From Baffinella frigidus (taxonomy: Eukaryota; Cryptophyceae; Cryptomonadales; Baffinellaceae), in contig MU646357.1 of NCBI GenBank assembly GCA_026770585.1, forward strand, positions 568,259 to 596,911: DNA of 28,653 nucleotides. The letters run 5' to 3'. The translations under genes were made by a program, and so were the position numbers. The notes beneath the pieces were generated by a model, which ran no database searches, had not been told where the DNA came from, and was given only the letters and a program-made list of their open reading frames with translations. Position 1 is the first letter of the stretch. Every line of letters begins with the position of its first letter. Positions 2,380 to 24,860 of this stretch are shown here, one piece after another.

Positions 2380-2428
2380 CTGAGAGGGCTTGATGGTACC
2401 CAAGCGCCACCCCCATCGGAAGCCGTAG
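2380..2428 (-). CDS. Candidate internal exon (partial), product unknown
   Basis: Read on the minus strand, a telomere-like C-rich tract ends in CACCCAG. This is followed by 49 nt encoding YGFRWGWRLGTIKPSQ, then a CAG/GTCCGC donor-like junction. Third codon positions are mostly G or C, as in the modelled TPR gene. In another frame the same bases read LRLPMGVALGYHQALS, so the frame is not certain. The product is not recognised. The call rests on coding bias and splice-site appearance only. Confidence 0.35.
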
Positions 2429-2470
2429 CTGGGTGGGGGTTTAGGGTTTAGGGTTTAGGGTTGAGTGTCG
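2429..2470 (+). repeat. Telomere-like array (TTTAGGG), inside a predicted minus-strand intron
   Basis: Three to four TTTAGGG units flanked by GGGTGGGGG. On the predicted sense (minus) strand this is CCCTAAA repeats ending at the CACCCAG acceptor of the candidate exon at 2380-2428. Confidence 0.7.
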
Positions 2471-2584
2471 CATCCCCGCCGTCCTTAGACCTCCATCCAG
2501 AGGACAGCTACACGCCGTCTATAGCAGAGGCACACTCTCTCTTAGTGTTCAGTGTTTACGGGTTATGGCTTGGGTGTAGAGCGG

Positions 2585-2640
2585 CCACATGGTGCAAATC
2601 CGCCACAGCTGGACACGCAGAACACTTCACTTCGGAAGGG
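2585..2640 (-). CDS. Candidate exon fragment, product unknown
   Basis: On the minus strand, C-rich telomere-like sequence (2641-2697) ends in AACCAG. The following codons read PFRSEVFCVSSCGGFAPCG with no stop until about 2562. Third-position bias is moderate. A donor is not obvious. It is listed because it repeats the pattern of array, CAG acceptor and coding-like sequence. Confidence 0.25.
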
Positions 2641-2697
2641 CTGGTTTGGAGTTAAGTTTAGGGTTGAGGTTTAGGGTTTAGGGTTGCGGGTTTAGGC
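2641..2697 (+). repeat. Telomere-like array
   Basis: Degenerate TTTAGGG, TTGAGGTTTAGGG and GCGGGTTTAGG units. It is followed by GGTTGGTTGGCTGG. It lies upstream, on the minus strand, of the candidate fragment at 2585-2640. Confidence 0.7.
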
Positions 2698-2750
2698 TGG
2701 TTGGTTGGCTGGACAGGGTCCGGAGAGAGCTATGTTAGAATCGCAGAACA

Positions 2751-2901
2751 ATGTGGGTATCTAGGATCTAAGGGCATAAGGACGCAAGGTTACTTCGGAG
2801 GGGCCTCAAAAGAGACCTTGCATCCTTATGCCCTTAGATCCTAGATAGGGCCTCCGAAATAACCTTGCGTCCTTATGCCCTTAGATCCTAGATACCCACA
2901 T
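2751..2901. mobile_element. Hairpin element with triplicated arm segment
   Basis: ATGTGGGTATCTAGGATCTA at the left is matched by TAGATCCTAGATACCCACAT at the right. The arm segment CTTATGCCCTTAGATCCTAG occurs twice on the right side and once, inverted, on the left, so the element carries an extra internal copy of one arm. Non-coding. The sequence from 2902 to 3095 contains no recognised gene. Confidence 0.75.
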
Positions 2902-3095
2902 AAAACTGCATGTGCGCCCCTTCCTGATACAAACCCCCTTCAATTCTGACGGCCCACGGTAGAGCGGTTTTCAAAAAACCGTTGCCCGCGAAAAGATTCA
3001 AACAAAAGTTGACGATTTAGTAAGTTGACGAATTAGGACCAGCAGCATCAACATTGGCCTTTGTTTCATTGCATCAACTTTGATATTCCACTTAC

Positions 3096-3281
3096 AGTCC
3101 ACCTACCCTAACACAGGCTACCGTGACACATACTTACCCTCTACACATACTCCTTCGGCCGGCCCCCGATTCCCCCCTGCAAGGAAGTATGCCTGAAGGG
3201 TGGACACCATAACGCATACCTACCCTCCACACATACTCAATCAGTCCGGCCCCGACGGGTATGTGTTAGGGTAGGTCCACT
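3096..3281. mobile_element. TIR element, CCTACCCTAACACA ends
   Basis: The left CCTACCCTAACACA mirrors the right TGTGTTAGGGTAGG. Internally, ACACATACT-CTTCGGCCGGC and ACACATACTCAATCAGTCCGG form a direct repeat, so the element looks internally duplicated. It directly abuts the next element at 3283. Confidence 0.6.
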
Positions 3282-3282
3282 G

Positions 3283-3413
3283 TACCACGCCAGAGCCTTG
3301 GAAGGTGTCGCCAAAAGCCCATTCCTCCTGGAGGCAGTTATTTTCAAAAGTCAAATACCGTACCAGGGTACGGTATTAAGAGACTCACCACCCTCCTCCG
3401 ATCTGGCGTGGTA
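3283..3413. mobile_element. TIR element, CCACGCCAGA family, copy 1
   Basis: TA-CCACGCCAGAG at the left and CTCCGATCTGGCGTGG-TA at the right suggest a 2-bp TA target duplication. The GGTGTCGCCAAAAG motif recurs in the copies at 6922 and 11623. A GTACCAGGGTAC palindrome sits inside. No ORF of its own. Confidence 0.75.
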
Positions 3414-3540
3414 GCAGCGGCCGAGTTCCTTTCCCCCCGGATATCCGGGGGAAACGCGGTTAGAATCCAATGCAAATGGATAAGATTCTGGTACAAGTCG
3501 TTTAGATGGACTGTATCCGCGAAGCCCCCGGTGGCTGCTC
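3414..3540. mobile_element. GCAGCGGCCGAG...GGTGGCTGCT element, copy 1
   Basis: This segment is the reverse complement of 8301-8437, including CCCGGATATCCGGGGGAAA and TACAAGTCGTTTAGATGGAC. The two copies are about 4.9 kb apart in opposite orientation. The sequence from 3541 to 3680 holds nothing recognised. Confidence 0.7.
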
Positions 3541-3680
3541 AGTAGATGCGGGTGGCGCAAGAGCTGTGGACCACGGATCTTTCTAGACCCCTAGAACCTA
3601 TAATGTGGGGGTCACGTGATCAACTGCTATATCTTAAAAAGGCGTATCTTCAAAAGGCTATCTTAAGTGGCTGCTAAGTT

Positions 3681-3841
3681 ATAGGGTAACGGACTAAAAA
3701 TGGGGTAGTTAGGCCTACGGCGTTGCCTAGGACCTCCTACTGTAGGCCAAAATCCTAGGAATTTTTGGTCATAGGAGCCCTACGGCCTACGGTAGGCAAT
3801 TCCGTAGGCCTAACTACCCCAGTTTTAGTCCGTTAGCCTAT
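3681..3841. mobile_element. Diverged ATAGGGTAACGGACTAAAA hairpin element
   Basis: It has the same plan as the ACGTCC family at 1149 (ATAGG...GGGTAGTTAGGCCTACGG and mirror), but the arm reads GTAACGGACTAAAA instead of CTAACGTCCTGAAAA. The two arms changed in a matched way, so it is a distinct subfamily rather than a decayed copy. The core carries CCTACGG and CCTAGG palindromes. Confidence 0.75.
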
Positions 3842-3854
3842 GAAAGTGGGCGGG

Positions 3855-4180
3855 ACCTCATCCGAGTACGGCCCAGCGTCACGCCCTCGCCGGCCCCGGC
3901 TCGGTTCATACAAAACCGTTTCGCTGGCGGACCCCTTAGCCTACGGTAGGAACCCCCCCTCCTCCTGCGACGTTTAAAACAAAAAGGTCTTTAAAAGTCG
4001 TAGGAGGGGGGCTCCTACCGTAGGCAACCCGCAGGCTCTAAGTACCTCGCTGGCGTTAGCTTTTCAGATGACTCGGCGCGCCTGGACCCCGAAGTGGACG
4101 GGATTAACCTCATCCGAGTATGGCCCAGCGTCGCGCCCTCGCCGGCCCCGGTTCGGTTCATACGAGACCGTTTCGCTCAC
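3855..4180 (+). repeat. Direct duplication of a 70-bp segment around a hairpin
   Basis: CATCCGAGTACGGCCCAGCG through CCGTTTCGCT at about 3857-3925 recurs at about 4110-4178 with few changes. Between them, 3942-4025 is a hairpin: CCTACGGTAGGAACCCCCCC pairs with GGGGGGGCTCCTACCGTAGG, plus a CGAC-GTCG stem. Only short unconvincing frames are present. Confidence 0.6.
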
Positions 4181-4184
4181 CTAC

Positions 4185-4300
4185 CCCCCATCCGGCAGGC
4201 CAATTTAGAACCACTCACCCCACATCCGACAGGCATATTTAGAATATCCGTTTCACTCACCCCCTCCCACCCCATCCGACAGGCTAATTTAGCATCAAGA
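4185..4300 (+). repeat. Tandem CCATCCGACAGGC-AATTTAG repeats
   Basis: Three units of CCCCATCCGACAGGC[C/T]AATTTAG[A/C]A follow one another. A fourth, more distant unit sits at 4693-4730 (ATCCGAGAGGCTAATTTAGC, then ATCAAGAC). Function unknown. Confidence 0.6.
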
Positions 4301-4383
4301 CACCCCGACACCTCGTGCTGTTGGTAGAGGTTCATGCGAAGCCGTTTCGCTTGCCTAGTCCTACTGTAGGGCCCTAGGGGGTG

Positions 4384-4410
4384 GGAGTATGAGCGAGGTA
4401 CCCCTGTGGC
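4384..4410. repeat. Solo end of the GGTACCTCGCTCATAAG TIR family
   Basis: GAGTATGAGCGAGGTACCCC matches the right end of the complete elements at 20957-21077 and 22347-22468. No left end precedes it; only the core fragment CCTACTGTAGGGCCCTAGG at 4361-4379 is left. It is a truncated copy. Confidence 0.65.
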
Positions 4411-4479
4411 TGGTGTTACCTCCGAGTGGCATAGCTCACGTTTCAGAGGTGGGCTCGTCCCTTACGGCTCATAGACTAT

Positions 4480-4572
4480 TGTATCACTCAAGTCAAGGCG
4501 TAAGAGCCTATTTAGGACCTGTATCGAGAGTAATACAGAAGAAGAAGAAGAAGAAGAAGAAGAAGAAGAGCG
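4480..4572 (+). mobile_element. Retroelement-like 3' end with (GAA)n tail, copy 2
   Basis: TATTGTATCACTCAAGTCAA through GACCTGTATCGAGAGTAATA matches copy 1 at 1735-1830. The tail here is an (AGA)n run of about 34 nt, longer than in copy 1. No internal ORF. Confidence 0.45.
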
Positions 4573-4994
4573 GTGTGCGGAGAAGTTGGCCGCAGAAACA
4601 ATAATGGCAAGGCAAGGTTGAAGGTGCTGATACAAAGTTGTCAACTTTTACTATTGTTTTCGTGGCCAACTTCTCGGCACAGCGCTCTGCCCCTCCCCCC
4701 ATCCGAGAGGCTAATTTAGCATCAAGACCTCTCGGGCTGTTTGCAGATATTGAAACGTCTCGCTTGCGCGGACTTGGCGAATCTCATGTGGAAACCGTTT
4801 TTTTAATAGGCTATGCCATTTACTACACATAATGGTGTTCACTAGTAATATTAAAGCTGTCGTGTAGTAATTTTCGTTGAAACCATTTTTCGATGTAAAA
4901 ACGTTTTCATATGAAATCGCGCGTGACTTGAAAACACTCCCACGACCCCCACAGTGGGATTCCAAGGAAACGTCGACCAGAAATCTGGCCGAAA

Positions 4995-5165
4995 TGTCAG
5001 AATCCTAGCTCTGCCCCACTTCGATTTCGTCTCCTCATCAATACGCCTCCCCCGAAATTTCTCAGGTAAATTTTATGGGGGGGGGGTCAAAAATCACCTG
5101 AAAAATTTCGGGGGGGGCGAATTGATGAGGAGACGAAATCGAAGTGGGACAGAGCTAGGAATCTT
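4995..5165. mobile_element. Long hairpin element with C/G-run loop
   Basis: CCTAGCTCTGCCCCACTTCG and following bases to about 5042 pair with 5120-5161, ending CGAAGTGGGACAGAGCTAGG. The loop side carries CCCCCGAAATTTCTCAGG mirrored by CCTGAAAAATTTCGGGGG. A GTCGAC sits outside each arm. Bases 4573-4994 hold no recognised gene. Confidence 0.7.
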
Positions 5166-5269
5166 GTCGACATGTCAGTTAATAAGATATCTTTGCACCG
5201 ATCAATTCGTAGTTAGTACCACGAAACAAAACGGTCCGATCTGCGAAGCCCTCTGTATCCACTCGCCCT

Positions 5270-5391
5270 TGGAGGTGGCTCAAATAGTGCTGTGGGGCGT
5301 TTTCGATTTACCTTGGATCGGGTTCAAAAGTGACCCCGATCCAAGGTAAAATCAAAGACCTTCCAGGGCACTATTCGAGCCACTTGGGAGG
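5270..5391. mobile_element. Fold-back element
   Basis: TGGCTCAAATAGTGC (5276-5290) mirrors GCACTATTCGAGCCA (5368-5382). An inner stem TTACCTTGGATCGGG / CCCGATCCAAGGTAA is also present. No coding potential. Confidence 0.7.
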
Positions 5392-5544
5392 GCTGGTGGA
5401 GGGTAGTACCCAGCGCAGATACGGGGGGAAGAGTTTTTTATATAAAAAGATAGAGTTTAGGGGGTGGACCTGCGGCCCCAGGCCACCCCTTGCGTGGGGG
5501 TGGCGGGCGGAGAATGTTTTGTGGGTACAGCTCGCTGGCCACCC

Positions 5545-5580
5545 TAGTGCAGCGCACTCCAGTGCTGCCTTGCGGTCCAC
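5545..5580 (-). CDS. Candidate exon VDRKAALE, tandem copy 1
   Basis: On the minus strand a (CCCCAAA)n tract ends in CAACCCAG and is followed by codons for VDRKAALECAAL. Near-identical sequence after a CAG or TAG recurs at 5947, 6655 and 6821. A GTGGCC donor-like site follows at about 5544 in this copy only. The repeated motif implies duplication of an exon with its upstream intron end. The product is not recognised. Confidence 0.35.
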
Positions 5581-5660
5581 CTGGGTTGGGGTTTGGGGTT
5601 TGGGGTTTGGGGTTTGGGGTTTGGGGTTTGGGGTTTGGGGTTGGGGGTTTGCAAAACAGG
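5581..5660 (+). repeat. Homogeneous TTTGGGG array
   Basis: At least eight successive GGTTTGG units without interruption, a TTTGGGG variant block rather than TTTAGGG. On the minus strand it forms a (CCCCAAA)n tract directly upstream of the CAG before VDRKAALE copy 1. Confidence 0.85.
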
Positions 5661-5921
5661 ACGTGCGGATGGACCCCAAACCGGGGATTAAGCCCATCGT
5701 AAACCTTAATCCCCGGTTGGGGGTTTAGGGTTTAGCATGTCCACCGTTTAGGCTCGCTGGCCACCCTAGTGCACCGCCAGGGCGGAGTTTTTGTATTAGT
5801 CAACTCACCTGCGAATGTGTAGTAAAGAAGTACCCATCACGGGTACCTCGTTTCTAAGTTGACAGATTTTGTGGGTGAATTGACTTTCACAAAATATCCG
5901 GCCTGGCAGTGTAGTGCCGCG

Positions 5922-5947
5922 CACTCCAGTGCTGCCTTGCGGTCCAC
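5922..5947 (-). CDS. Candidate exon VDRKAALE, tandem copy 2
   Basis: On the minus strand, CAACCCAG is followed by GTGGACCGCAAGGCAGCACT, encoding VDRKAALECAAL as in copy 1, then the sequence diverges. The upstream G-rich tract at 5948-5980 is short. No good donor is visible, so this copy may be dead. Confidence 0.25.
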
Positions 5948-5983
5948 CTGGGTTGGGGATTGGGGGTTGGGGTCTGGGGTTTT

Positions 5984-6119
5984 ATCCCGGGAAACCTATT
6001 TTTCTTCCATTTCCTGGTAACGAACATTACTACATGAATTCTTTAATACTACTAATAAAAACGAATTGTGTAGAAGTTTTTGTTGCCAGGAAATGAAAAA
6101 AAAATAGGGTTCCCCGGAC
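5984..6119. mobile_element. Fold-back element with CCGGGAAACCTATTTTT arms
   Basis: TCCCGGGAAACCTATTTTTC pairs with the AAAAAATAGGGTTCCCCGGA end, and GGTAACGAACATTACTACAT pairs with GTGTAGAAGTTTTTGTTGCC. Half-copies of the same arm occur at about 1601-1690 (ATCCGGGGAAACCTATTTTT) and 4800-4890. Confidence 0.65.
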
Positions 6120-6245
6120 AAGGTTTGCAAAGCAGGAAATGCGGATGGACCCCAAACCGGGGATTAAGGTTTACCCATCGTGACCCTAATCCCCAGTTTG
6201 GGGTTTAGGGTTTAGCATGTCCACCGTTTAGGCTCGCTGACCACC

Positions 6246-6406
6246 CCACACAGCGGGCTACGAAGGGATTTTTGGCCCAAATCGGGCCGAATTCCCGTTA
6301 CCTTATCCGTAGGAACCCCCCTATGTCCCTACGAGTTGCCTACCCTAGGGTCCTAGGTCTTATCGCTTAAGGGTTATTCGAAATCCCTTCGCACTCCGCT
6401 GTGTGG
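6246..6406. mobile_element. 161-bp TIR element, CCACACAGCGGGCTACGAAGG family, copy 1
   Basis: Ends: CCACACAGCGGGCTACGAAG and CTTCGCACTCCGCTGTGTGG. Interior: CCGTTACCTTATCCGTAGGA, then CCTAGGGTCCTAGGTCTTAT, the shared palindrome module. Copies of almost equal length lie at 7519 and 8747. Non-coding. Confidence 0.85.
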
Positions 6407-6425
6407 CTAGAGCTGCGCACTGCAA

Positions 6426-6635
6426 CCACTCGAGGCTGGAAGATGGAGTATTTTAAATGTGGGATTGTTAGATTTAGTACCAGTCACGGGCAGGCTTGGT
6501 CACGTTACTGGGGGAATTCCCCCAGTAACGTGACCAAACGCGATATTTATGTGAAAATTACTACACAGCGGTCCACTTGCAAAGGACTTGTAAGGTTTAA
6601 ACTTTCAAAATAGTCACATTTCTAGCCTCGAGTGG
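6426..6635. mobile_element. TIR element, CCACTCGAGGCT family, copy 1
   Basis: The ends are CCACTCGAGGCTGGAA and TCTAGCCTCGAGTGG. The centre is a hairpin, GGTCACGTTACTGGGGGAAT with its complement. It sits against VDRKAALE copy 3 and truncates it. Sister copies lie at 10170 (opposite orientation) and 11069. Confidence 0.8.
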
Positions 6636-6655
6636 AATGCTGCCTTGCGGTCGAC
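6636..6655 (-). pseudogene. VDRKAALE exon copy 3, cut by a TIR element
   Basis: On the minus strand, AAAACTAG is followed by GTCGACCGCAAGGCAGCATT, encoding VDRKAA, and then directly by the CCACTCGAGG end of the element at 6426-6635. The insertion removes the rest of the exon-like segment. Confidence 0.3.
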
Positions 6656-6699
6656 CTAGTTTTGAGGTTGGAGTTTATTGTTTCGTTTTTGTGATTATG

Positions 6700-6790
6700 C
6701 TACAGGGTTTAGGGTTTGGGGATGAGGGTTTGGGGAGTAGGGTTTAGGGGTCATGGATTGGGGATTAGAGATTAGGGTTTGGGGTTGCAG
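6700..6790 (+). repeat. Degenerate telomere-like array
   Basis: Units such as TTTAGGG, TTTGGGGATGAGGG and ATTAGGG are mixed. On the minus strand this C-rich stretch precedes VDRKAA copy 3. Confidence 0.65.
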
Positions 6791-6797
6791 AAACGAA

Positions 6798-6821
6798 CTC
6801 CAGCGCTGCCTTGCGGTCAAC
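6798..6821 (-). CDS. Candidate exon VDRKAALE, tandem copy 4
   Basis: On the minus strand, CCCTGAACCAG precedes codons for VDRKAALEFVSAT, then the sequence runs into C-rich repeats. An array at 6822-6865 lies upstream on that strand. The relation to copies 1-3 is clear at the nucleotide level; whether any copy is spliced is unknown. Confidence 0.25.
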
Positions 6822-6921
6822 CTGGTTCAGGGTTAGGGGTTAGGAGATAGAGATTAGGGTTTAAGGCTACATAAAGGGACTCCCAACTCAGGCAATCGAA
6901 TGAGTATCCCATCTGGTGTCT

Positions 6922-7051
6922 TACCACGCCAGATTGCAGGTGGGGGTTGATTTTTTTAAACCCTATCAGGATAGGGTTTGCTACTTTTGAAAACCACTGC
7001 CTTGAGGGAAAATTGACTTTTGGCAACCCCTTTCAAGAATCTGGCGTGGTA
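6922..7051. mobile_element. TIR element, CCACGCCAGA family, copy 2
   Basis: TA-CCACGCCAGATT to AATCTGGCGTGG-TA gives an apparent 2-bp TA target duplication. Internally there is AAACCCTATCAGGATAGGGTTT, a palindrome. The TTGGCAACCC motif corresponds to GGGTCGCCAA in the copy at 11623. Confidence 0.75.
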
Positions 7052-7096
7052 TACCTTCTGGATTCCCACACCGTCTGAAACCTTCTGGAATAACTC
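7052..7096 (-). CDS. Candidate exon fragment ending GVGIQKV, product unknown
   Basis: The minus strand reads RELFQKVSDGVGIQKV and then enters the TIR element at 6922-7051. The ending GVGIQKV matches GAGIQKV of the exon-like segment at 7681-7760, which also runs into an element. The two may be copies of one exon. Confidence 0.3.
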
Positions 7097-7099
7097 CCG

Positions 7100-7215
7100 A
7101 CTCTTCTCAAGTTGACATGCTGGGTGTGCGGTATAAATCCGTCAACTTTGGCGCGGAAACGAGCCCGGGCTCACCAAAGTGGTGAGCCCAAATAGACTGA
7201 TACAGAGCTAGACCT
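7100..7215. repeat. Dispersed repeat shared with 11510-11630
   Basis: GGGTGTGCGGTATAAATCCG, GTCAACTTTG and GGTGAGCCCAAATAGACTGA occur in the same order at both sites. The internal GGGCTCACCAAAGTGGTGAGCCC is a palindrome. Confidence 0.65.
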
Positions 7216-7340
7216 CCTCAACAGAACTAGTTCTGGACCTGGGAAGGGAAAATAAATCCCAGCGTGACCGAATCGTGACCAACTGTAAGGAGCCGGTGGC
7301 CTTTTAAGGACGCTATCGATTTTCAACAAAGGCCAGGGTT

Positions 7341-7510: not shown

Positions 7511-7518
7511 TAGCCTCA

Positions 7519-7760: not shown

Positions 7761-7789
7761 CTGCCCCATAGAAAGACGTTTGTTAGGGA

Positions 7790-7895
7790 CGTGTGCATCG
7801 ATGCGCTGGTACAAAGCAGGACGTGCTGAGGGACATGTGGATCGATGCGCTGGTACAAAGCAGGACGTGCTGAGGGACGTGTGGATGGATGCGCT
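7790..7895 (+). repeat. 44-bp minisatellite
   Basis: Two full units and a partial one of GATCGATGCGCTGGTACAAA / GCAGGACGTGCTGAGGGACA / TGTG. It is related to the 32-bp array at 2174 but has a longer spacer. Confidence 0.75.
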
Positions 7896-7924
7896 GGATG
7901 CGCGAGTCGGAGACTCGCGCATCG

Positions 7925-8125: not shown

Positions 8126-8189
8126 ACGGTTTTAGGATGTCTGTATGGGGGCCCGGTCCCCGTCGAGGGCAAACGGTGCGTAGGTAGTA

Positions 8190-9800: not shown

Positions 9801-9815
9801 GTGGGGGCTCATGAC

Positions 9816-9880: not shown

Positions 9881-10080
9881 CTGAGGGTTTCGGGTTTCGG
9901 GTTTCGGGTTTCGGGTTTGGGGGTAAGGGTTTAGGGTTTGGGGTTTGGTGGTTGGTGGTTGGTGGTTAGGGGTTAGGGTTTAGGGGGTTTAGGGTTTAGG
10001 GTTTAGGGTTTAGGGTTTGGGGTTTGGGGTTTAGGGTTTGGGGTTTGGGGTTTGGGGTTTGGGGTTTGGGGTTTAAAGTG
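9881..10080 (+). repeat. Telomere-like array with homogeneous variant blocks
   Basis: Runs of TTTCGGG (about 9890-9920), GGTTGGTGGTT, TTTAGGG (about 9990-10015) and TTTGGGG (about 10015-10075) follow one another. Each variant is locally homogeneous. On the minus strand the array leads to the CCCTCAG acceptor of the exon at 9816-9880. Confidence 0.85.
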
Positions 10081-10384: not shown

Positions 10385-10512
10385 ACCTGGACTGTCCCGG
10401 CGGATCTTAATAAACAAATCTTTCCGACGCTTTTGTCAAGGAATGTTTGGCTAAATATTTTGAATGAGGAGCCGGGATAAACCCTGGCAGCGCCTAGCTC
10501 TCCCTCACTTTC

Positions 10513-10678
10513 ATAGGCTAACGTCCTGAAAACCGGGTAGTTAAGCCTACGGTATTGCCTACGGTAGGCCGTAGGGGCCTAGGGGGGGTCCTATGAAACA
10601 TTAGGTCCTAGGGGCCCTACGGCCTACCGTAGGCAATACCGTAGGCCTAACTACCCGGTTTTCAGGACGTTACCCTAT
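10513..10678. mobile_element. ACGTCCTGAAAACC hairpin element, copy 2
   Basis: Almost identical to the copy at 1149-1313, including CGAAACATTAGG at the loop (here TGAAACATTAGG). Such similarity suggests recent spread. Confidence 0.85.
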
Positions 10679-10758
10679 TAAGGTGGGGCATCGCTAATGC
10701 CAGAGAGGAACCGCCGTTGGCAGCAAAAAGACGTTAGGTGCATAGTGTGCATAGGGTG

Positions 10759-10768: not shown

Positions 10769-10814
10769 CATGCTTTTCGCGTGGCCAACAGAAACCACTC
10801 TCATGCCTACATCC

Positions 10815-11011
10815 ATAGGCTAACGTCCTGAAAACCGGGTAGTTAAGCCTACGGTAGTACCTACGGTAGGCCGTAGGGTCCTAGGGGGGTCCTACGGTAG
10901 GCCGTAGGGTCCTGGGGGGGGTCCTATGAAACATTAGGTCCTAGGGGCCCTACGGCCTACCGTAGGCAATACCGTAGGCCTAACTACCCGGTTTTCAGGA
11001 CGTTACCCTAT
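10815..11011. mobile_element. ACGTCCTGAAAACC hairpin element, copy 3 with internal duplication
   Basis: It has the same arms as copy 2, but CCTACGGTAGGCCGTAGGGT followed by CCT-GGGGGGGTCC is present twice on the left side. That makes it about 31 bp longer than its sisters. Confidence 0.85.
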
Positions 11012-11937: not shown

Positions 11938-12112
11938 CTGTCTCAGTGTTTAGTGTTGAGGGTTTAGGGTTTAGGGTTTAGGGTTGAGGGTTTAGTGTTT
12001 AGTGTATGGGGTTTAGTGTTTCGTGTTTCGTGTTTCGTGTTTCGTGTTTAGGGTTTAGGGTTTAGTGTGTAGAGTGAGGGTCGAGATGAGGGTTTAGGGT
12101 GCAGGGTTTTAC
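11938..12112 (-). other. Predicted intron built of telomere-like repeats
   Basis: On the minus strand it begins GTAAAACCCTGCACCCTAAA and ends CACTGAGACAG. Between these are CCCTAAA units and a block of CACGAAA units (TTTCGTG on the plus strand, about 12015-12045). It is 175 nt long and joins two phase-0 exons. The sense strand is the C-rich strand, as in the TPR intron at 19534-19712. Confidence 0.5.
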
Positions 12113-15035: not shown

Positions 15036-15075
15036 ACACACACACTCTCTCTCTCTCTCTCTCTCTGTAAAGCGA

Positions 15076-15106
<31 letters not shown>

Positions 15107-15155
15107 GTTCTATCTCTCTCGCTGGCTCTCTCGTTCGCTCGTTCTCTCGCTTTCC
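15036..15155 (+). repeat. CT-rich microsatellite
   Basis: Imperfect (CT)n with CTCG and CTGG interruptions. It ends TTTCCAG, so it would serve as a pyrimidine tract if the exon-like copies on either side are spliced. Confidence 0.85.
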
Positions 15156-15157
15156 AG

Positions 15158-15200
15158 CAGGTGGTCCTCGAATCCTACCCTACATCCGCCGCCTCCGCAA

Positions 15201-15203
<3 letters not shown>
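15158..15203 (+). pseudogene. Second copy of the QVVL exon-like segment, frameshifted
   Basis: CAGGTGGTCCTCGAATCCTA aligns with CAGGTTGTTCTCGATTCGTA of the first copy, and TCCGCCGCCTCCGCAAGTGC with TCCGCCGCCTCCACAAGTGC. A 5-nt insertion breaks the frame, so this copy looks dead. Confidence 0.4.
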
Positions 15204-15245
<42 letters not shown>

Positions 15246-15267
15246 AAAACCCCCCCCCCCCCCCCCC
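15204..15267 (+). repeat. Poly-C tract, C40-A6-C18
   Basis: Forty C, then six A, then eighteen C. Homopolymers of this length are prone to slippage and to sequencing error, so the exact length is doubtful. CT/CCCT-rich sequence continues to about 15360. Confidence 0.9.
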
Positions 15268-15417
15268 TCCCCCTCTCTATCTCCATGTAAAATGACTCTC
15301 CCCCCCTCTCTCCCCCCCTCTCGCTCCCCCTCTCTCTCTTCCTGTCTCTCTGTCTCTCTGCAACGTTTGCGTAGAGCTCGCGTTCGGACATGATCAGGAG
15401 GCCGTCGAGGTAGCCAA

Positions 15418-17734: not shown

Positions 17735-20370
17735 ATGGAAGCTGGGGCTGGCGGCCAGCCAGAGGCGGAAGCCCTGCAGTACGACACCCCACAGCAGCTG
17801 CTCGACATGGCGGAACACGATCGTGGCGGGTATCTGAGGGGAATCTTGCAAGTCCTGGAAAACGCAGGGGAATATCTCGCAGCTGGGCGTCTGCCCCCTT
17901 CCGAGCTCAAGCTTCCGATGCAGCTCGCCCCGTACCCAACTTCAATCATCCGCATCAAGGGGTATGAGGGAGGAGAGTACTCCCCGGGGGAACTTGGCGT
18001 CGGGTGCACCGTCGTGCCGCCGTCCGAGGGGAGAGGATCCAACACGACGGGTGGATGGAGCCTGCGTTCTGTGAGTTCCCTCAACCCTTCCCCACCGCCG
18101 GCCTGCCCTCCAGCATCTCTATCTAGCTGGGTCCCGACCCCCCTCCCCACCGCCGGTCTGCTCGCTAGAAGCTTTCTCTGGTCCGTGCCTGACTTCGCTC
18201 CCTCCCTTGCAGGACGGCACCAAGCAAGAGACTTCGCAGCCTGGGCTCTTCCGCGAGCCAATGAGGGTGAGGGTGAACACGACCGGCAACGATCCCGACC
18301 TTAAAGGCAAGTACTTCAAGTACACGTTGGCAACCCCGCCCGTCGATTTCCTCGTCCCGGCCGCCACCAGCAGCCACGGTGTGCCCTTCGTGTTGATGCA
18401 CGAGCGGAAGGGGCCCGTGGGCTTCGCTGCCGCCTCCGAGATCACTCCAGATGATCTCCTCGAACTGGTCACGGGAACCATCGAGCACCTCAGCTTCGCG
18501 GGGCCAGCCACCAGCTCCGACGGAGGGGCCGGTGCGGGCGACGCCAACAACGTCAACCCAGCCATCCTGCCGCTCTTCATGGCTGCCCCCGTCAGCGGGG
18601 CGGCAGAAGCCATGCGTCTCAAGACGCTGGGGAACCAGCGCTTCAAGGCCGGCGAATTCTCCTCGGCGGTGGGGGTCTACTCGGAGGCGATCGCGCTGCT
18701 GGAGGGCGAGGGGGACGACGCGGCGCTCGCTACGCTCCTCTGCAACCGCAGCGCCGCCTACCTCAAGTCCATCCGGCCCGCCGCGGCACTCGACCTGGCG
18801 CTAGCTGATGCTGAGAGGGCGCTGGCGCTCGGTGGGCGGAAGGCGCATTTTCGTTGCGCGGAGGCGCTGTCAAGCCTGAGTCGCTTCCCCGAAGCTCTTG
18901 CGGCGTACGAGGCTACGCTGGCGACAGCGAAGGCGGGAGTCGACATGGGCGGCGTGCGCGACAAGATCGAGGAGCTGCAGCGCTTGCTGTCGGGCGCGCA
19001 GGAGACCCTCGCCAAGGTCTCCTTGCAGGCAGCTGCGCACGGCGGTGGGGAAGAGCTGACGACCATTTTATGTTCCGACGAGTGGGCAACGGGGAAGGGG
19101 CGCTTTTTGTCAACGTGGGTGGGGCGCAAGGGCCTCGCTACGGTCTTGAAGACGGTGCTGGATGCTTCCAACACGTTCGATTGGACGGTCGTCCTGGAGT
19201 GGGAGGGGCGCATGGAGGAGCTGCTGGAGAATCAGTCGAATGCAACCTGTGTGTTCCTTCTCGGTATTTTCAAAAAAGCTCAGATGAATCGAGGGGGGAT
19301 GGTGATCGGCAGCGCACCTGCACTCAAGGCCTTCGACATGGAGAAACGGCTCGTCGATCTCCTCGGGAAGGAGGAGCGCTTCCGGCACCAGGGCGAGGCG
19401 ATGTACACGATGGCGAACCAGCTCTTCACTTCCGGGGAGTTCGAGGAAGCTGAGAAGTGGTACGCGAGGACGCAGAAGCTGGCGGAAGCGCACGGCTTCT
19501 TCTCGCTGGAGAGCAGGCGCTGCTTGGGGCTCGGTCAAGCCTAAACCCTAAACCCTGAACCCTAAACCCTAAACCCTAAACCCTAAACCCTAAATCCTAA
19601 ACCCTAAACCCCAAACCCTAAACCCTGAACCCTAAACCCTAAACCCTAAACCCTAAACCCTAAACCCCAAACCCCAAACCCCAACCCCCAAACCCTAAAC
19701 TCGAAACTCCAGGTCTCGTTGCCTTGGAGGAGAAGCGCGACAAGGACGGAATGGAGCTGCTTTGGAACTCGCTGGTAGCGGCGCGGCTTGACGAGATCGA
19801 GGACGGCCTCTCTGAACTGAGTGCGCTGACGGTGTTGATCCCTGTGCTCACCACGAGGAAGGAACTCGACGAAGCGGAGCCGCTGGTTCTGCGCTTTCGC
19901 GAGGCGGCTAAGGAGCAGTCTCGAAAGCTGGGGCAATTCTCCTCCCAAGAGCTTGAAGGCATCTACCTCAGCGCGAAACTTCAGAAGGTCATGTCCATCC
20001 TGGTTACAGGCTGCTTCCGTGTGGAAAACCATCCTTTACACCCCTTTCACACACCCGAGCTCTCGCATTCCACCAAGGACAGTAGAAGCTATCGAGGGTT
20101 TAACCACGCCCGAGTGAAAACAGACGCACATGTTGACCCTCCCACGCTCTCCAGGCACGCGGGAAGCCTCACGAGGCCGTGAACGAGTTGCGCAGTCTGC
20201 TCGACCTTCTGCGCGCGAACACGGCTGCAGTGCGCGAAACCGTCCTCCCTATGCGTCAAGAGCTGCGGGTTCGTGTCAGCTGGCTCTTGAAGGAACTATT
20301 TGAGGAGAGCGGGGAGCAGGAGCTCATCTCTATGCACCACGAGCTGGTCAAACTGTTAGCTTGCGAATGA
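17735..20370 (+). CDS. Tetratricopeptide-repeat protein, four exons, 715 residues
   Basis: Exons: 17735-18070, 18213-19533, 19713-19987, 20155-20370; introns have GT-AG ends (GTGAGT/TTGCAG, GTCAAG/CTCCAG, GTCATG/CTCCAG) in phases 0, 1, 0. Joined, they make 715 codons and a stop. The start ATG has G at -3 and +4. Residues 1-230 are a conserved-looking N-terminal region of unknown fold (QLAPYPTSIIRIKGYEGGEY; VGFAAASEITPDDLLELVTG). TPR motifs follow at about 244-277 (LKTLGNQRFKAGEFSSAV), 283-316 (LLCNRSAAYLK) and 321-354. A middle region without clear motifs leads to further TPR-like helices at about 503-540, 541-578 and 610-680 (ARGKPHEAVNELRSLLDLLR). TPR arrays bind other proteins, often chaperones or complex subunits. 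No catalytic domain or signal peptide is seen, so a soluble scaffold is likely; the partner is unknown. An upstream exon cannot be excluded. Confidence 0.85.
18071..18212 (+). other. TPR gene intron 1
   Basis: It starts GTGAGTTCCC and ends CTCCCTTGCAG. It is 142 nt, pyrimidine-rich and phase 0. A short internal direct repeat (CCCCACCGCCGG) occurs twice. It is an ordinary intron, in contrast to intron 2. Confidence 0.8.
19534..19712 (+). other. TPR gene intron 2, made almost entirely of telomere-type repeats
   Basis: Between GTCAAG and AAACTCCAG the 179-nt intron holds about twenty CCCTAAA, CCCTGAA and CCCCAAA units. Removing it restores a single frame (RRCLGLG|LVALEEKR) across a split glycine codon, and the flanks read as one TPR helix pair. 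Without splicing, the frame stops at 19542-19544, within the first repeats. Confidence 0.85.
19988..20154 (+). other. TPR gene intron 3
   Basis: 167 nt, GTCATG to CACGCTCTCCAG, phase 0. Splicing joins SAKLQK to ARGKPHEAV. Reading through is possible for a while (to about 20182), but that loses the C-terminal helices. Confidence 0.75.
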
Positions 20371-20620
20371 AGGAGATGGGGGGGGGGAGAGACGGTTTCG
20401 TGTCCTGTGGCAGGCAGGCAGATAACTTCTGGGTGTGGCGTGTCGTGGTGTGGTGTTTCGTGAGACATCACACCCATCTCACGATACACCACACCCATCC
20501 CTTGCAATCCCGGGAGTAACTGCAAAGGATGGGCCCGCCAGGCAAGGCAACTGCCTATGCAGCTCTCAGTAAAGCAACTAGTGTGCGCCTGCAAATCATT
20601 GGGGTGGGGTCCTTGAGGTC
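20371..20620. repeat. 3' flank of the TPR gene with inverted repeat
   Basis: A run of G is followed by an imperfect fold-back (GGTGTGGTGTTTCGTGAGAC / TCTCACGATACACCACACCC, about 20430-20500). No clear AATAAA signal was seen near the stop codon; polyadenylation signals in such protists are often not recognisable. Confidence 0.5.
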
Positions 20621-20670
20621 CTTTAGGTTTTTCGAGCTCCCAACATAGGCGGGCACCGGAACTTGTTCTG
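20606..20670 (-). mobile_element. GGACCTAAA-tailed repeat end, single copy
   Basis: On the minus strand: CCGGTGCCCGCCTATGTTGG, GAGCTCGAAAAACCTAAAGG, ACCTCAAGGACC. It has the same terminal sequence as 25160-25205 and 25675-25735. G-rich low-complexity sequence follows (20670-20720). Confidence 0.6.
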
Positions 20671-20827
20671 CGGTGGGGGGGGCAGGGGGGACGGGGGACG
20701 GGGGAGAGGGGGGGGCAGAGGCGAAGACCTGCTCACTGAAGCAATGTGTGCACTCAGTAAAGTCGATCTCTCTCCTCGAGACCTGTTTGTACATTCAAGC
20801 GCTGTGCGTGGAAGCGCCCGACGTCTG

Positions 20828-20892
20828 AATTTAGGGGTTGCTTGATTCAGATGAGCAACCCCTACATTCAGATGTAGGGGTTGCTCGATGAT
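20828..20892. repeat. Inverted and direct AGGGGTTGCTTGAT repeats
   Basis: TAGGGGTTGCT occurs twice direct and once inverted (AGCAACCCCTA), around two CATTCAGATG motifs. It breaks the minus-strand coding-like segment next to it. Confidence 0.6.
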
Positions 20893-20950
20893 GCGGTCCA
20901 CCTCAAGGAGTTTGAGATGAAAGGACGCGAGCGTCGACGGCATCCTCGTG
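20884..20950 (-). CDS. Candidate exon fragment MPSTLASFHLKLLEVDRIIE
   Basis: The minus strand reads MPSTLASFHLKLLEVDRIIE with G/C-biased third positions. The 5' side is a TIR element (20957-21077) and the 3' side the AGGGGTTGCT repeats. The product is unknown; it may be part of a minus-strand gene together with the islands at 21090, 21707 and 22095. Confidence 0.3.
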
Positions 20951-20956
20951 GAAGCA

Positions 20957-21077
20957 TACAGGGGTACCTCGCTCATAAGGAACCGCCCCCCCCCTAGGAC
21001 CAGCATAGGGCCCTAGGCATGGTCCTACTGTAGGGTCCTAGGAGGAGGCGGTTTCTTCTGAGCGAGGTACCCCTGTA
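20957..21077. mobile_element. 121-bp TIR element, TACAGGGGTACCTCGCTCAT family, copy 1
   Basis: TACAGGGGTACCTCGCTCAT to GAGCGAGGTACCCCTGTA. The interior is CCCCCCTAGGACC..CATAGGGCCCTAGGCATGG and CCTACTGTAGGGTCCTAGGA. Arms are nearly perfect, but the C-runs next to CCTAGG vary between copies. Further copies: 21213, 22347, 22954, with degenerate forms at 14485, 21473 and 23338. Confidence 0.9.
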
Positions 21078-21089
21078 GTGTGCAGCTGC

Positions 21090-21207
21090 ACCTTCCCGCC
21101 CTCCGAAGCGGCGAATTGTGATCGTTTGCGGGTCTCTCGGGTGTGTACCACAGCACACCCCTCGTACACATCGGGGTAAATCGGACATCGGCTCTCACCA
21201 GCATGCC
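21090..21207 (-). CDS. Candidate exon fragment, product unknown
   Basis: On the minus strand, TACAGACAG (partly within the preceding element) is followed by MLVRADVRFTPMCTRGVLWY and TPERPANDHNSPLRR without a stop. Codon bias is moderate. It is bracketed by two copies of the GTACC TIR element. Confidence 0.25.
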
Positions 21208-21212
21208 TGTCT

Positions 21213-21333
21213 GTACAAGGGTACCTCGCTCATAAGAAAATACCCCCCCTAGGACCGCCATAGGACCCTAGACGTAGGCTTACTGTTGGGTCCTAGGGGG
21301 AGGAGCTTTCTTATGAGCGAGGTACCCATGTAC
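21213..21333. mobile_element. GTACC TIR element, copy 2
   Basis: GTACAAGGGTACCTCGCTCA to TGAGCGAGGTACCCATGTAC. 121 bp, the same length as copy 1. Core CCCTAGGACCGCCATAGGAC and TACTGTTGGGTCCTAGGGGG. Confidence 0.9.
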
Positions 21334-21427
21334 GGCTGTACATACACGCACGCCACTGCATCCTTTTGCCCTCAAGTTTACTCAGAGTGAGACGAACATC
21401 CACATCGGTACCTCCCTCAACCCTACA

Positions 21428-21595
21428 GCTGAAAGCCTAAACCCGAACCCTAAAACCAGACCCTGAACCCTATACGGGTTTCTCGTTCACAAGAACCCCC
21501 CCCCAAAAAAAAGGATGGGGGGGGTCGTTCACGTTCACACGTGAGCGAGAGACACCCCATGTAAACCCTGAACCCGAACCCTGAACCATGAGAGC
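21428..21595. repeat. Telomere-like units split by a degenerate GTACC-type hairpin
   Basis: C-rich telomere-like units lie at 21428-21472 and 21560-21590. Between them 21473-21561 is TATACGGGTTTCTCGTTCAC to GTGAGCGAGAGACACCCCAT with a C-run/A-run loop. It looks like an element inserted into the array, with its core reduced. Confidence 0.6.
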
Positions 21596-21706
21596 ACCCC
21601 GAATAGTCGATCGAACGGCCCGAGGCGGGCTCGTCCAAAACTAGGTCCTCACAAGGCCGTTAGACTGGGTCCTCACATGAAACCTAGGCAGAAAGTGCGG
21701 TGCAGC

Positions 21707-21800
21707 TACCGCCTAGGGGCCACGTCAAACGCGATCTTGTCAAAGAAGGTCCTCTTCTTGACGGCTTCGTGTGTCTCTGTAACCTCGTTTAGAATACAGG
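21707..21800 (-). CDS. Candidate coding island ending at TAG, product unknown
   Basis: The minus strand reads FANNPCILNEVTETHEAV then KKRTFFDKIAFDVAP and RR-stop; the frame is open from about 21930. AAG, GAG, GTC and ATC codons dominate, suggesting real coding sequence. No start or splice acceptor is compelling. It may be a terminal exon or gene remnant. Confidence 0.35.
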
Positions 21801-21930
21801 GGTTGTTCGCGAATAAGGACACGCACCGCCTTAGGCGTCCTACCGTAGGGATGTTCCCAGGGGCAAAGGACCACCCTACATGTAGGGACGGTAGGTCTCG
21901 CCGTCCTCGCTCAGCTTTAACCTGCCCGGA

Positions 21931-22035
21931 TATCCCTTAAGTGGCCAGTAGGCGCATACGCCCTACCGTAGGGCCCTAGGACCTGCCTAGGACCTCTTGC
22001 GGGTCAATTTTGACCGGCTGGCCACTTAAGGGATA
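21931..22035. mobile_element. TATCCCTTAAGTGGCC TIR element, copy 3
   Basis: TATCCCTTAAGTGGCCAGTA to GGCTGGCCACTTAAGGGATA. Inner palindrome GGTCAATTTTGACC and core CCCTAGGACCTGCCTAGGAC. The best preserved arms of the family. Confidence 0.85.
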
Positions 22036-22094
22036 GCGTGTCCTGGGGTTACAGGGGTCACTCAAAATCTCAATTTTGAGTAACCCCGGTACAC
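22036..22094. repeat. Hairpin GGGGTTACAGGGGTCACTCA
   Basis: GGGGTTACAGGGGTCACTCA and AAATCTCAATTTTGAG pair back through TGAGTAACCCCGGTACACGC. It lies between a TIR element and the exon-like segment at 22095. Confidence 0.6.
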
Positions 22095-22159
22095 GCAGGA
22101 GTCAACACCGCCCCGCACATTGAGAGGCCGATGACAAGTGTCTCGGGCAGGATGGCACG
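22095..22159 (-). CDS. Candidate exon RAILPETLVIGLSMCGAVLT
   Basis: On the minus strand a (CA)n tract ends CAACGAAG, then 65 nt encode RAILPETLVIGLSMCGAVLT followed by PA, then a C/GTGTAC junction. The peptide is hydrophobic and could be a membrane helix. Third positions are mostly G or C. The acceptor is weak. Family not recognised. Confidence 0.35.
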
Positions 22160-22171
22160 CTTCGTTGGAAG

Positions 22172-22240
22172 ATGTTGTGTGTGTGCGTGTGTGTGCGTGC
22201 GTGTGTGTGTGTGTGAGAGAGAGAGAGAGTGTGTGTGGGG
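22172..22240 (+). repeat. (GT)n-(GA)n microsatellite
   Basis: GTGTGCGTGTGTGTGCGTGC with GTGTGTGTGT is followed by GAGAGAGAGAGAG and GTGTGTG. On the minus strand it is a (TC)n/(CA)n tract upstream of the exon-like segment at 22095. Confidence 0.85.
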
Positions 22241-22346
22241 GGGTATGAGCTCGCCTGGGAGCGGTGGCCCCCAGCCGGCTAAACCTATAAGAGGGAACCT
22301 AGCGGCAGCACCAAGAGGGGGGTGGAGGTAGGGAGAGAGCCAGAGC

Positions 22347-22468
22347 ACAGAGGTACCTCGCTCATAAGAAACGGCTCTCCCCTAGGACCCTACAGTAGGA
22401 CCATGCCTAGGGCCCTATGGTGGTCGTAGGGGGGGGGGGTGGTTTCTTATGAGCGAGGTACCCCTGTA
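22347..22468. mobile_element. GTACC TIR element, copy 3
   Basis: ACAGAGGTACCTCGCTCATA to TATGAGCGAGGTACCCCTGT. Core CCCCTAGGACCCTACAGTAG and CCTAGGGCCCTATGGTGGTC. The G-run opposite the C-run is longer, so the stem near the loop is imperfect. Confidence 0.9.
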
Positions 22469-22953
22469 CTCCTGTCTCAGTATTGTCGGAGTTCCCCTCC
22501 TACCCAGAGTGTCGGAGTTTCCCTCCCACCCGAAACCCCAAACCCTAGACCCTGAACCCTAAACCCTAAATTCTAAACCCACCGTGTACGTGTTTCCCTC
22601 CTAGCTACAAAATTTGCCCCCCCCCCCGCATATTCCGATCAGAAAATCGTTTCTGCAAATGAAGAACTTTTCCCCTATGAAGGGAAGCCAGGGAAAGACC
22701 GCGGTTAGATTTCTCACACCGCGCCCGGAGGCGAAGAGGTCAACAAAATCCTAAACGTAAATCCCGCCGTGAGTCTTTCTATTATTTGCGCCACGATTTG
22801 TACATCGAATAACAGGTACACGCCTGCGTTAGGAGGCTACTTGCAGAGTGCAGATGACCTCTCTCTCGCGGTCCTACTCGGACACAGCCTCCTTGGTGGT
22901 GGTGCATGCATCGTGTCAGGCCATGTTGGCAGTAATAAACGTCTCTCTCTCTT
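22469..22953. repeat. Gene-poor spacer with telomere-like block
   Basis: GTCGGAGTTCCCCTCCTACC and GTCGGAGTTTCCCTCCCACC form a direct repeat. A C-rich telomere-like block lies at 22530-22580 and a C-run at 22615-22627. A plus-strand frame at 22769-22975 (GGYLQSADDLSLAVLLGHSL) is open but not recognised and has weak support. Confidence 0.4.
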
Positions 22954-23072
22954 TACAGGGGTACCTCGCTCATAAGAAACCGCCCCCCCCTAGGACCCTA
23001 CAGTAGGCCTATGCCTAGGGCCCTATGATGGTCCTAGGGGGGGGGGCGATTTCTTATGAGCGAGGCACTCCT
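22954..23072. mobile_element. GTACC TIR element, copy 4, fused to a TATCCC element
   Basis: TTACAGGGGTACCTCGCTCA to TATGAGCGAGGCACTCCTA. Its last bases overlap the start of the TATCCCGTAAGTGG element at 23072. The right half is part of the inverted duplication (22974-23651); the left end is not, so the duplication boundary falls inside this element. Confidence 0.8.
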
Positions 23073-23651
23073 ATCCCGTAAGTGGCCATGCCGTCAAATT
23101 TGACGGCCAAGAGGTCCTAGGCAGGTCCTAGGGCCCTACGGTAGAGCCTATGAGCCTTTTGGCCACTTAAGGGATACAGCAGGAGCGAGAAGGCCTCCTC
23201 CTGCGGGGAGAGACCTTTAGGTCTTTTTTAGGTCCTTCAGGTCCTTTAGGTTTTGATATCTCCCAAAATATCCCAACGACACGCCTTTCTGTAGAACAAT
23301 CTGCAGACAGTGGTCATGTTGGTTGTGATCCGATTTCAGGGGTTCCTCGCTCACAAGGATCCCGCCCTTAGGACCACCGTAGGGCCCTAGGCACAAGCCT
23401 ACTGTAGGCTTCTGGGAGGGCGCGCCCCCTTGTGAGAGAAGTGCTTCTCCAAACGCGTGATTTCTCTGTCCGACTCCTGCGAGGGCTGGCACGGCCACAC
23501 GGTGGACTACGGACCTTTCACTCAAAGTCAACTTGCCTTGAGGCAGTTAACTTCAAGGATTTTCTGGTGCAATTTGGTCACGTAACACCCTGAATTCCAG
23601 CCCCAACGAAACCCTCGTAGCCCACCGTGTGATGCTTCCAGCTAGCGGATC
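22974..23651. repeat. Arm 2 of the 678-bp inverted duplication
   Basis: The reverse complement of 14281-14958. Both arms keep the same order of nested elements and similar length, with differences such as ATCTGCAGACAGTGGTCATG against CATGACCACTATCTGCAGAT. The translated frames of the two arms differ at about ten of 104 positions. Confidence 0.85.
23072..23176. mobile_element. TATCCCTTAAGTGGCC TIR element, copy 4
   Basis: TATCCCGTAAGTGGCCATGC to TTGGCCACTTAAGGGATA. It is the counterpart of 14756-14860 inside the inverted duplication. Confidence 0.8.
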
Positions 23652-23819
23652 TTTGTTATTACACTCACAACTGAGTGACGCTATGTGGTCACCCGAGACC
23701 GGACTGCCCCCCTCAGAGCCGCTCACACGCACCCACCTCCCCCCGCGAGAGAGATTGGTAATTGATCGCCAAACAACCAGCGTCAGCCCCGCACATTCCT
23801 TACGCATTGTGCTACTTAC

Positions 23820-23877
23820 TGTACCCCGTGTCGGCAACTCTTACGAGTTTTTCCCGGATGGATTCTATCTCCGCCTC
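23820..23877 (-). CDS. Candidate exon EAEIESIREKLVRVADTGY, copy 2
   Basis: On the minus strand GGATTGCAG is followed by 58 nt encoding EAEIESIREKLVRVADTGY plus one base, then GTAAGT, an ideal donor. The frame is also open upstream to an acceptor TTCAG at 23944, adding ASSVLGALSLKKTPGVLS, so the exon could start at 23943 (124 nt). A paralogous exon of the same 58-nt length is at 25002-25059, beyond the telomere-like array. The peptide is a charged helix; family unknown. Confidence 0.5.
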
Positions 23878-23954
23878 CTGCAATCCCCCCGAGAGGACAC
23901 CCGGTGTCTTCTTGAGACTAAGCGCACCTAGAACGCTGCTAGCCTGAACTTGAG

Positions 23955-24120
23955 GAAAGGGTTTCGGGTTTCGGGTTTAGGTTTCAGGTTCCAGAATTTG
24001 GGGTTCAGGGTTTGGGGTTTGGGGTTTAGGTGGGATTTAGGGTTTAGGGTTTAGGGTTTAGGGTTTAGGGTTGAGTGTTTAGGGTTTAGGGTTTAGGGTT
24101 TAGGGTTTAGGGTTTAGGGT

Positions 24121-24152
<32 letters not shown>

Positions 24153-24860
24153 GGTTTAGGATGTAGGGTTGAGGGTTCAGGGTTAAGGTCTCTCTCACTT
24201 TGTTCTGGTTAGGATCTAGGGATTAGGGTGTGTGGTGTACGGTTTGGGGTTTGGGATGTAGAGTTTAGGGTTTAGGATTTAGGGTTCAGCGGTGGTTTAG
24301 GGTTCAGGGTTTAGGGTTTAGGATTCAGGGTTCAGGGTTTAGGGTTTAGGGTTTAGGGCTTGGGGCTTAGGGCTTAGGGTTTAGGGTTTAGGGTTTAGGT
24401 TTTATTTTTCAGGGTTTAGTGATTAGGGTTTGGGGGTTAAGGGTTAGGGATTAGGGTTTAGGGTGTATAGTGTACGGTGTAGGGTTCAGGGTTCAGGGTT
24501 CAAGGCTTAGGGTGTAGGGTGTAGGGTGTAGGGTGTAGAGTTTAGGGTTTAGGGTTTAGGGTCTAGGGTTTAGGGTTTAGGGTTCAGGGTTTAGGGTTTA
24601 AAGGTTAGGGTTTAGGTTTGATGGTTCAGGGTGTAAGGTGTAGGGGTTAGGGTTAAGGTTTAAGGTTTAGGGTTTAGGGTGTAGGGTTTAGGGTTTAGGG
24701 TTAAGGGTTTAGGGTTTAGGGATTAGGGTTAAGGGTTTAGGGTTCAGGGTGTAGGGTTTAGGGGTTAGGGTTTAGGGTTCAGGGTTTAGGGTTTAGGGTT
24801 TAAGTTTTAGGGTTAGGGTTTAGGGTTTGGTGTTTAGGGTTCAGGGTTTAAATTTTGGGG
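23955..24860 (+). repeat. Interstitial telomere-like array of about 900 bp
   Basis: More than a hundred degenerate TTTAGGG units with variants TTCAGGG, TTGAGGG (block at about 24118-24160), GTGTAGGG (block at about 24505-24540), CTTAGGG and TTTGGGG. It lies between two copies of the EAEIES-type exon and, on the minus strand, would make up most of the intron between them. The array is too degenerate for an active chromosome end. Confidence 0.95.

Follow-up and report, generated by a model that had tools for sequence, protein, structure and literature searches.

Telomere-type arrays in Baffinella frigidus point to a possible new source of spliceosomal introns

How new introns originate has been an open question for a long time, and telomeric insertions are generally considered tolerable outside exons only. 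A 28,653-nucleotide stretch of the nuclear genome of the cryptophyte alga Baffinella frigidus (the window) raises the question of whether telomere-type repeat arrays can themselves be introns. The repeat is TTTAGGG/CCCTAAA, presumably the telomere unit of Baffinella. The initial annotation had claimed that at least ten arrays in the window end at a splice acceptor (CAG or TAG) followed by coding-like sequence, always with the C-rich strand as the sense strand. Based on the window, a genome-wide scan and homology across array junctions, it was concluded that many telomere-type arrays in Baffinella probably form spliceosomal introns wholly or for the most part, and that these probably arose from break-repair insertions, with an orientation set by splicing. 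The apparent array introns point to a new source of introns.

Among the ten window arrays, homologues on both flanks were found for 19534-19712 only. This array lies in a predicted plus-strand gene of four exons encoding a 720-residue TPR protein (Table 1), whose Pfam TPR matches were slightly below the curated cut-offs and whose best named relative was a Baffinella frigidus protein. The second intron of the gene, with termini GTCAAG...CTCCAG, was nearly all telomere-type, with CTAAACC units following GTCAAGC, and GGTC flanked the array on both sides. When the array was removed, the product aligned without a gap at this site with P0001 (59% identity), P0002, P0003 and P0006. The site was without an insertion in P0001, P0003 and P0006, and the frame of P0001 was uninterrupted there. 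P0001 is a 550-residue frame from a 4,241-base ENA contig, and its end, VISIQVEGCLPVENLSYTS, resembled the translated window intron 3; from this it seems to be a raw genomic frame running on into the equivalent of that intron. The telomeric intron was probably gained in the Baffinella lineage, with loss in the relatives as a possible alternative. Among viral contigs, 74 stretches fitted a peptide pattern of the TPR family, and none was confirmed.

The whole 382,457,362-base assembly was scanned for the repeat. Three perfect telomere units were found 27,288 + 25,832 times, against 14 + 13 times for the reversed pattern, which is far beyond chance, and the arrays occurred within long contigs, that is, away from chromosome ends. 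In the C-sense, CCCTAAACCCTAAA followed by CAGGT within 12 bases gave 510 + 396 = 906 matches, and followed by CBGGT (CCGGT, CGGGT and CTGGT pooled) gave 150 + 148 = 298. The CAG share after C-sense arrays was 0.752, compared with 0.294 in a background of ~66 kb of visible sequence (CAGGT 155; the other three words 146, 132 and 94), which included two overlapping loci, L006 and L013. In the G-sense, CAGGTS was found 143 times and CBGGTS 454 times, a CAG share of 0.240, under the background; C-sense CAGGTS was found 622 times. The two orientations were compared by slightly different words, CNGGT for the C-sense and CNGGTS for the G-sense, where the base after GT excludes most variant units. The plain G-sense CAGGT count (1008) was dropped as a control, since almost every one of the 100 matches listed looked like a variant unit within an array (e.g., TTCAGGT). 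An acceptor signal was seen in one orientation only, the C-sense. Matches do not equal arrays: the genome-wide counts include overlaps within one array (8 overlapping pairs among the first 100 C-sense CAGGT matches listed, 6 among the first 100 for CBGGT), and since much of the assembly reads N they are lower bounds. The 906 C-sense CAGGT matches, some of them overlapping, would fit many introns of a common sequence type. The tails between array and acceptor varied among the matches listed, and the downstream sequences of 20 fetched CAGGT loci differed from each other, which argues against one copied element; in 16 of the 20, as a raw count, a frame of 16 or more residues with a positive score lay directly 3' of the acceptor. 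Separately, a scan of a viral collection for six or more perfect CCCTAAA units gave five loci (L001-L005, IMG/VR contigs).

Sixty short loci were used for the junction test, in which the C-rich strand was read and the flanks were joined over the removed array. The 37 loci unselected for a C-sense acceptor came from the plain array list (17) and the G-sense CAGGT list (20), the latter if anything favouring the G-sense; the 23 selected loci (3 + 20) were taken around C-sense CAGGT matches. The homology-supported set comprised eight array introns in six genes (TPR, SMG1, RAB1, ClpB, aldo-keto reductase and SEL1), with seven junctions covered, and all of them were C-sense. The selected SMG1 locus (L054) aligned without a gap through the junction at an E value of 5.4e-17. 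In the unselected RAB1 locus (L047), ETAKEFADQLG was joined to IPFLETSAKNSHNVEQ, gapless against Rab-1B (E 5.7e-11), and the annotated Baffinella RAB1 protein P0015 was identical in 34/34 residues over this junction. Between two arrays of the same intron, the upstream exon occurred once more in slightly diverged form; P0015 has this segment once. In the unselected ClpB locus (L071), two array introns separated FLNRIDE, VALYSPLTIEKMAEILK and IQMKRYTEAFESKKITVDLDD, and both junctions were gapless against ClpB (4.5e-8). The unselected SEL1 locus (L042) also had two array introns, of which the first was spanned by a Pfam Sel1 match (5.8e-9). The selected aldo-keto reductase locus (L085; Pfam 6.7e-6, PDB 3e-6) was gapless at the junction, although the PDB alignment had gaps in other places.

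The C-rich strand was likewise the sense strand in two further unselected loci, BCCIP (L049, with support for the upstream exon alone) and TPR (L056). All five unselected loci supported by Pfam or PDB were C-sense, and no G-sense one was found. In TPR, RAB1, ClpB, SMG1, SEL1 and the aldo-keto reductase, the introns had GT (or GC) 5' ends and AG 3' ends at the positions that restored the frame. An apparent GC-AG intron was also seen as the second array intron of L046, a locus with no Pfam support, where the GC was part of a GGC on both sides of the array. At the cyclin locus (L080) Pfam supported the upstream exon only and no PDB match was obtained, and a guess of GILT for L063 was rejected, as it had no Pfam match.

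A basis for the single orientation was sought in the repeat itself. A perfect C-rich array contains no AG and no GT, whereas its G-rich strand contains one AG and about one GT per 7-base unit. Both strands carry a stop in every frame, each 21 bases. Since both strands are untranslatable and false splice sites are missing from the C-rich one alone, only C-sense insertions would be cleanly spliceable. The initial annotation had suggested that the C-rich repeat could serve as a ready-made pyrimidine tract. This was not supported, as the unit is only 57% pyrimidine and has AAA every 7 bases; the lack of AG and GT explains the orientation better. CTAAAC possibly resembles the branch-site consensus.

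We proposed that telomeric DNA inserts in genes, most likely during the repair of chromosome breaks, either by telomerase or as captured telomeric DNA. An insertion in an exon would bring stops in all three frames in either orientation and would survive only when spliced out. In a (CCCUAAA)n transcript, with no AG or GU, the spliceosome could pair a GU (or GC) on the upstream border with the first AG on the downstream border, which would restore the frame. In a (UUUAGGG)n transcript, each seven-base unit would add one false AG and one false GU, and we infer that such insertions are purged. A wider proposition is finely balanced: in Baffinella, and perhaps in further protists, new spliceosomal introns would keep arising across the genome from telomerase or telomeric DNA, with one orientation an intron and the other lethal. 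If true, the simplest repeat of the cell, made by its own enzyme, would in one orientation already be an intron ready for splicing, and a chromosome-repair pathway would feed intron gain. Such a mechanism predicts strand bias, the acceptor position and intron-free relatives.

The orientation was also assayed with tests applied to both strands. A YAG lay no more than 20 bases from the edge of the array in 24/40 C-sense and 13/40 G-sense cases (nominal p 0.024). The symmetric Pfam scan used stop-free stretches of 34 or more residues that lie outside the arrays of the unselected loci, leaving out L045, which has arrays in both directions; this covered 148/152 of the C-strand and 134/142 of the G-strand stretches of at least 33 residues. 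The C strand gave BCCIP (1.5e-10), TPR_10 (7.8e-4) and three weaker families (0.0023-0.0078), and the G strand gave four weak families (0.0014-0.0068).

Several observations weigh against the proposed origin. With two credible C-strand matches only, the symmetric Pfam scan had little power, and codon scores of 34 unselected arrays were weakly biased, being higher on the C strand in 19/34 cases and in 8/11 of the strong ones; the latter test did not discriminate, probably because antisense exons score as well. The RAB1, ClpB and SEL1 loci were spotted by eye in the C orientation only and then tested, so that this choice was not blind. No homology was found across the second SEL1 intron, the L046 introns and the cyclin junction, and some arrays had no acceptor or coding sequence nearby. 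Intron-free relatives were found for one site only, that of the TPR gene, where loss is possible. Short duplications over all 57 arrays were not significant (508/5000 permutations as high), and for the summed flank similarity permutations were as high in 43/2000 (unselected) and 102/2000 (selected) cases.

The main rival is that the repeats grew inside old, ordinary introns by insertion or slippage, the C-rich orientation being tolerated there for its lack of AG and GT, so that the bias would be selection on intron content. The TPR gene does have ordinary introns as well, some arrays sit in longer composite introns (L024; RAB1, L047; BCCIP, L049), and the short duplications were not significant overall. 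However, the TPR array fills nearly its whole intron at a site that is intron-free in three relatives. Moreover, duplications of 6-8 bases at the donor start and the downstream exon start were found in 3/57 arrays (GGTACATC, GGTGGAC and GGTACC), against 0.8% of mismatched pairs, and copies of 30-40 bases flanked the arrays of L059, L064, L076 and L077, as expected for insertions. These four loci were counted among the eight arrays past the 99th percentile of flank similarity (5/39 and 3/27); L040 and L045 were set aside because telomere-like sequence matched itself, and L068 and L091 because they lie differently. The flank duplications resemble insertion at staggered breaks, as reported for horse telomeric insertions and Daphnia introns. 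Insertion during repair was considered most likely, and growth within old introns rather unlikely.

Spread of the arrays by a mobile element carrying telomeric repeats, that is, by an introner of transposon type, appears improbable. The window has many inverted-repeat elements, and introners with target duplications are known (sections of PMC9860276). Yet the array introns inspected by eye had no shared sequence beyond the repeat and no terminal inverted repeats, although no systematic test was made, and their tails before the acceptor were variable. Chance or artefact is hardly credible. C-rich arrays have no G, so that the G which comes first after such an array is often preceded by an A and AG is the natural first G dinucleotide; the words could then come from repeat decay or mis-assembly. 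This argument holds for any single array, and the examples of the initial annotation were chosen; its sense calls were partly deduced from the CAG itself and to that extent circular. CA is nevertheless absent from the perfect unit, yet CAGGT is threefold as frequent as CCGGT, CGGGT and CTGGT together, and homology resumes in frame past the junction in six genes. The intron class filled with telomeric repeats that had been suggested from the window was thus supported by the acceptor counts and the gapless junctions, tests that do not depend on which arrays the initial annotation had picked, and we infer that its orientation is selected by splicing.

The window arrays themselves gave a mixed picture. 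Telomere-type arrays were present at all ten positions, and the C-rich strand ran into CAG or TAG in 10/10 of them. The second half of the original claim, that coding-like sequence follows, failed for the arrays ending at 2429 and 2641. The arrays ending at 5581, 5948, 6656 and 6822 all precede copies of one segment, GT[GCT]GACCGCAAGGCAGC (VDRKAA), and are therefore not independent. The first changes among these copies fall at third positions; by analogy with RAB1, some of the segments may be decayed exon copies within an intron. The coding-like scores after 11938, 9881 and 23944 were modest (Table 1), and the best background fractions on the G-rich side in the same scoring were 0.016 (antisense of TPR exon 2), 0.094 and 0.157. 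A Pfam scan of the guessed minus-strand exons (window; loci L024 and L032) gave nothing significant, leaving the minus-strand genes unproven. The claim was thus partly confirmed: judging from sequence, one of the ten arrays is a near-certain intron (that of the TPR gene), three are plausible, four lie before duplicated segment copies and two have no coding support.

Table 1. Features of the window. The background fraction is the share of background YAG sites whose downstream coding-like score is as high.
Feature	Position	Strand	Observation
TPR exon 1 (ATG)	17735..18070	plus	gene model and homologues
Intron 1, ordinary GT-AG, non-telomeric	18071..18212	plus	gene model
TPR exon 2	18213..19533	plus	gene model and homologues
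Telomeric intron 2	19534..19712	plus, C-rich strand = sense	GTCAAGC(CTAAACC)n...CTCGAAACTCCAG
TPR exon 3	19713..20002	plus	gene model and homologues
Intron 3, ordinary GT-AG, non-telomeric	20003..20154	plus	gene model
TPR exon 4, TGA stop	20155..20370	plus	gene model
Telomeric array	11945..12111	minus	CAG at 11938, then coding-like VFAVMVMCAGLYLIAAG; background fraction 0.064
Telomeric array	9882..10076	minus	CAG at 9881, then coding-like ERLTRAISLCQRLDSLDTSRN; background fraction 0.062
Long degenerate telomeric array	23957..24865	minus	CAG at 23944, then coding-like ASSVLGALSLKKTPGVLSGGLQEAE; background fraction 0.157
CCCCAAA-type array	5557..5651	minus	VDRKAALE segment copy after its CAG
Degenerate array	5920..5984	minus	with VDRKAALE segment copy
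Degenerate array	6632..6786	minus	TAG, then diverged copy VDRKAAFHS
Degenerate array	6798..6866	minus	with copy VDRKAALEF
Short array	2436..2465	minus	CAG at 2429; no coding support, background fraction 0.235
Short array	2643..2698	minus	CAG at 2641; no coding support, background fraction 0.653

The word "always" in the description of the C-rich strand as sense proved too strong. The arrays at 128-192 and 400-476 have their C-rich strand on plus, while minus is the strand on which the duplicated coding-like segments of 554-593 and 912-951 are read; in L024, a degenerate G-rich array lies in the sense direction, apparently in the same intron as the C-rich array at the acceptor (by eye).

Diverged exon-like segments in two or more copies were observed around several arrays, namely in the window (554-593 with 912-951, 5551-5580 and 5918-5947) and in L047, L064, L072, L076, L077, L091 and L094. 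Telomeric arrays of opposite orientation lie side by side at window 400-519 and in L045. At the long array 23957..24865, sequence like that at ~23840-23880 recurs past the array at ~25021-25062 (by eye). The inverted-repeat elements of the window belong to several families (e.g., CGGGTAGTTAGGCCTACGG...) and lie at 1180-1310, 3690-3835, 10495-10696, 10800-11010 and elsewhere; some adjoin arrays, and the elements may themselves be introners. Tandemly repeated sequence, with 32- and 44-base periods and with GGACGTGCTGGTACAAA-like units, was seen at 2175-2363 and 7785-7897, and long CT and poly-C tracts at 15045-15340. An exact-pattern scan of viral and GTDB contigs for a repeat element of the window gave no match.

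Among the literature matches listed, which were openly licensed papers, no earlier report of introns made of telomere repeats was found. The closest known systems are introners, break-repair introns and interstitial telomeric sequences. Introners are described, in sections of PMC9860276 and PMC7789003, as many introns of one sequence type genome-wide that fit between exons, sometimes with short target duplications giving the splice sites. The array introns are similar in being many, of one sequence type and between exons; they differ in that their body is a tandem telomere repeat, without a transposon consensus and, on inspection by eye, without terminal inverted repeats. The main introner survey excluded low-complexity families by design, according to sections of PMC9860276, so that array introns are probably not listed there; if the proposed origin is true, surveys that discard low-complexity introns miss a class. 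In Daphnia, introns were gained by double-strand-break repair in exons, and staggered breaks gave direct repeats of 4-12 bp (sections of PMC4202315). Insertion at an exon break is what was proposed here as well, whereas the insert in Baffinella is telomeric and strand-biased, and the available sections of the Daphnia account (PMC4202315) include neither telomeric inserts nor strand bias. Human and horse interstitial telomeric sequences are short arrays that inserted at breaks, some with flanking duplications and some not, for which telomerase has been proposed (sections of PMC7215372). In human, 0 were in exons and 31% in introns, which was compatible with random insertion, and an effect on splicing was left open by the authors in the sections available (PMC7215372). 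Unlike these sequences, the Baffinella arrays themselves appear as introns, and with an orientation bias.

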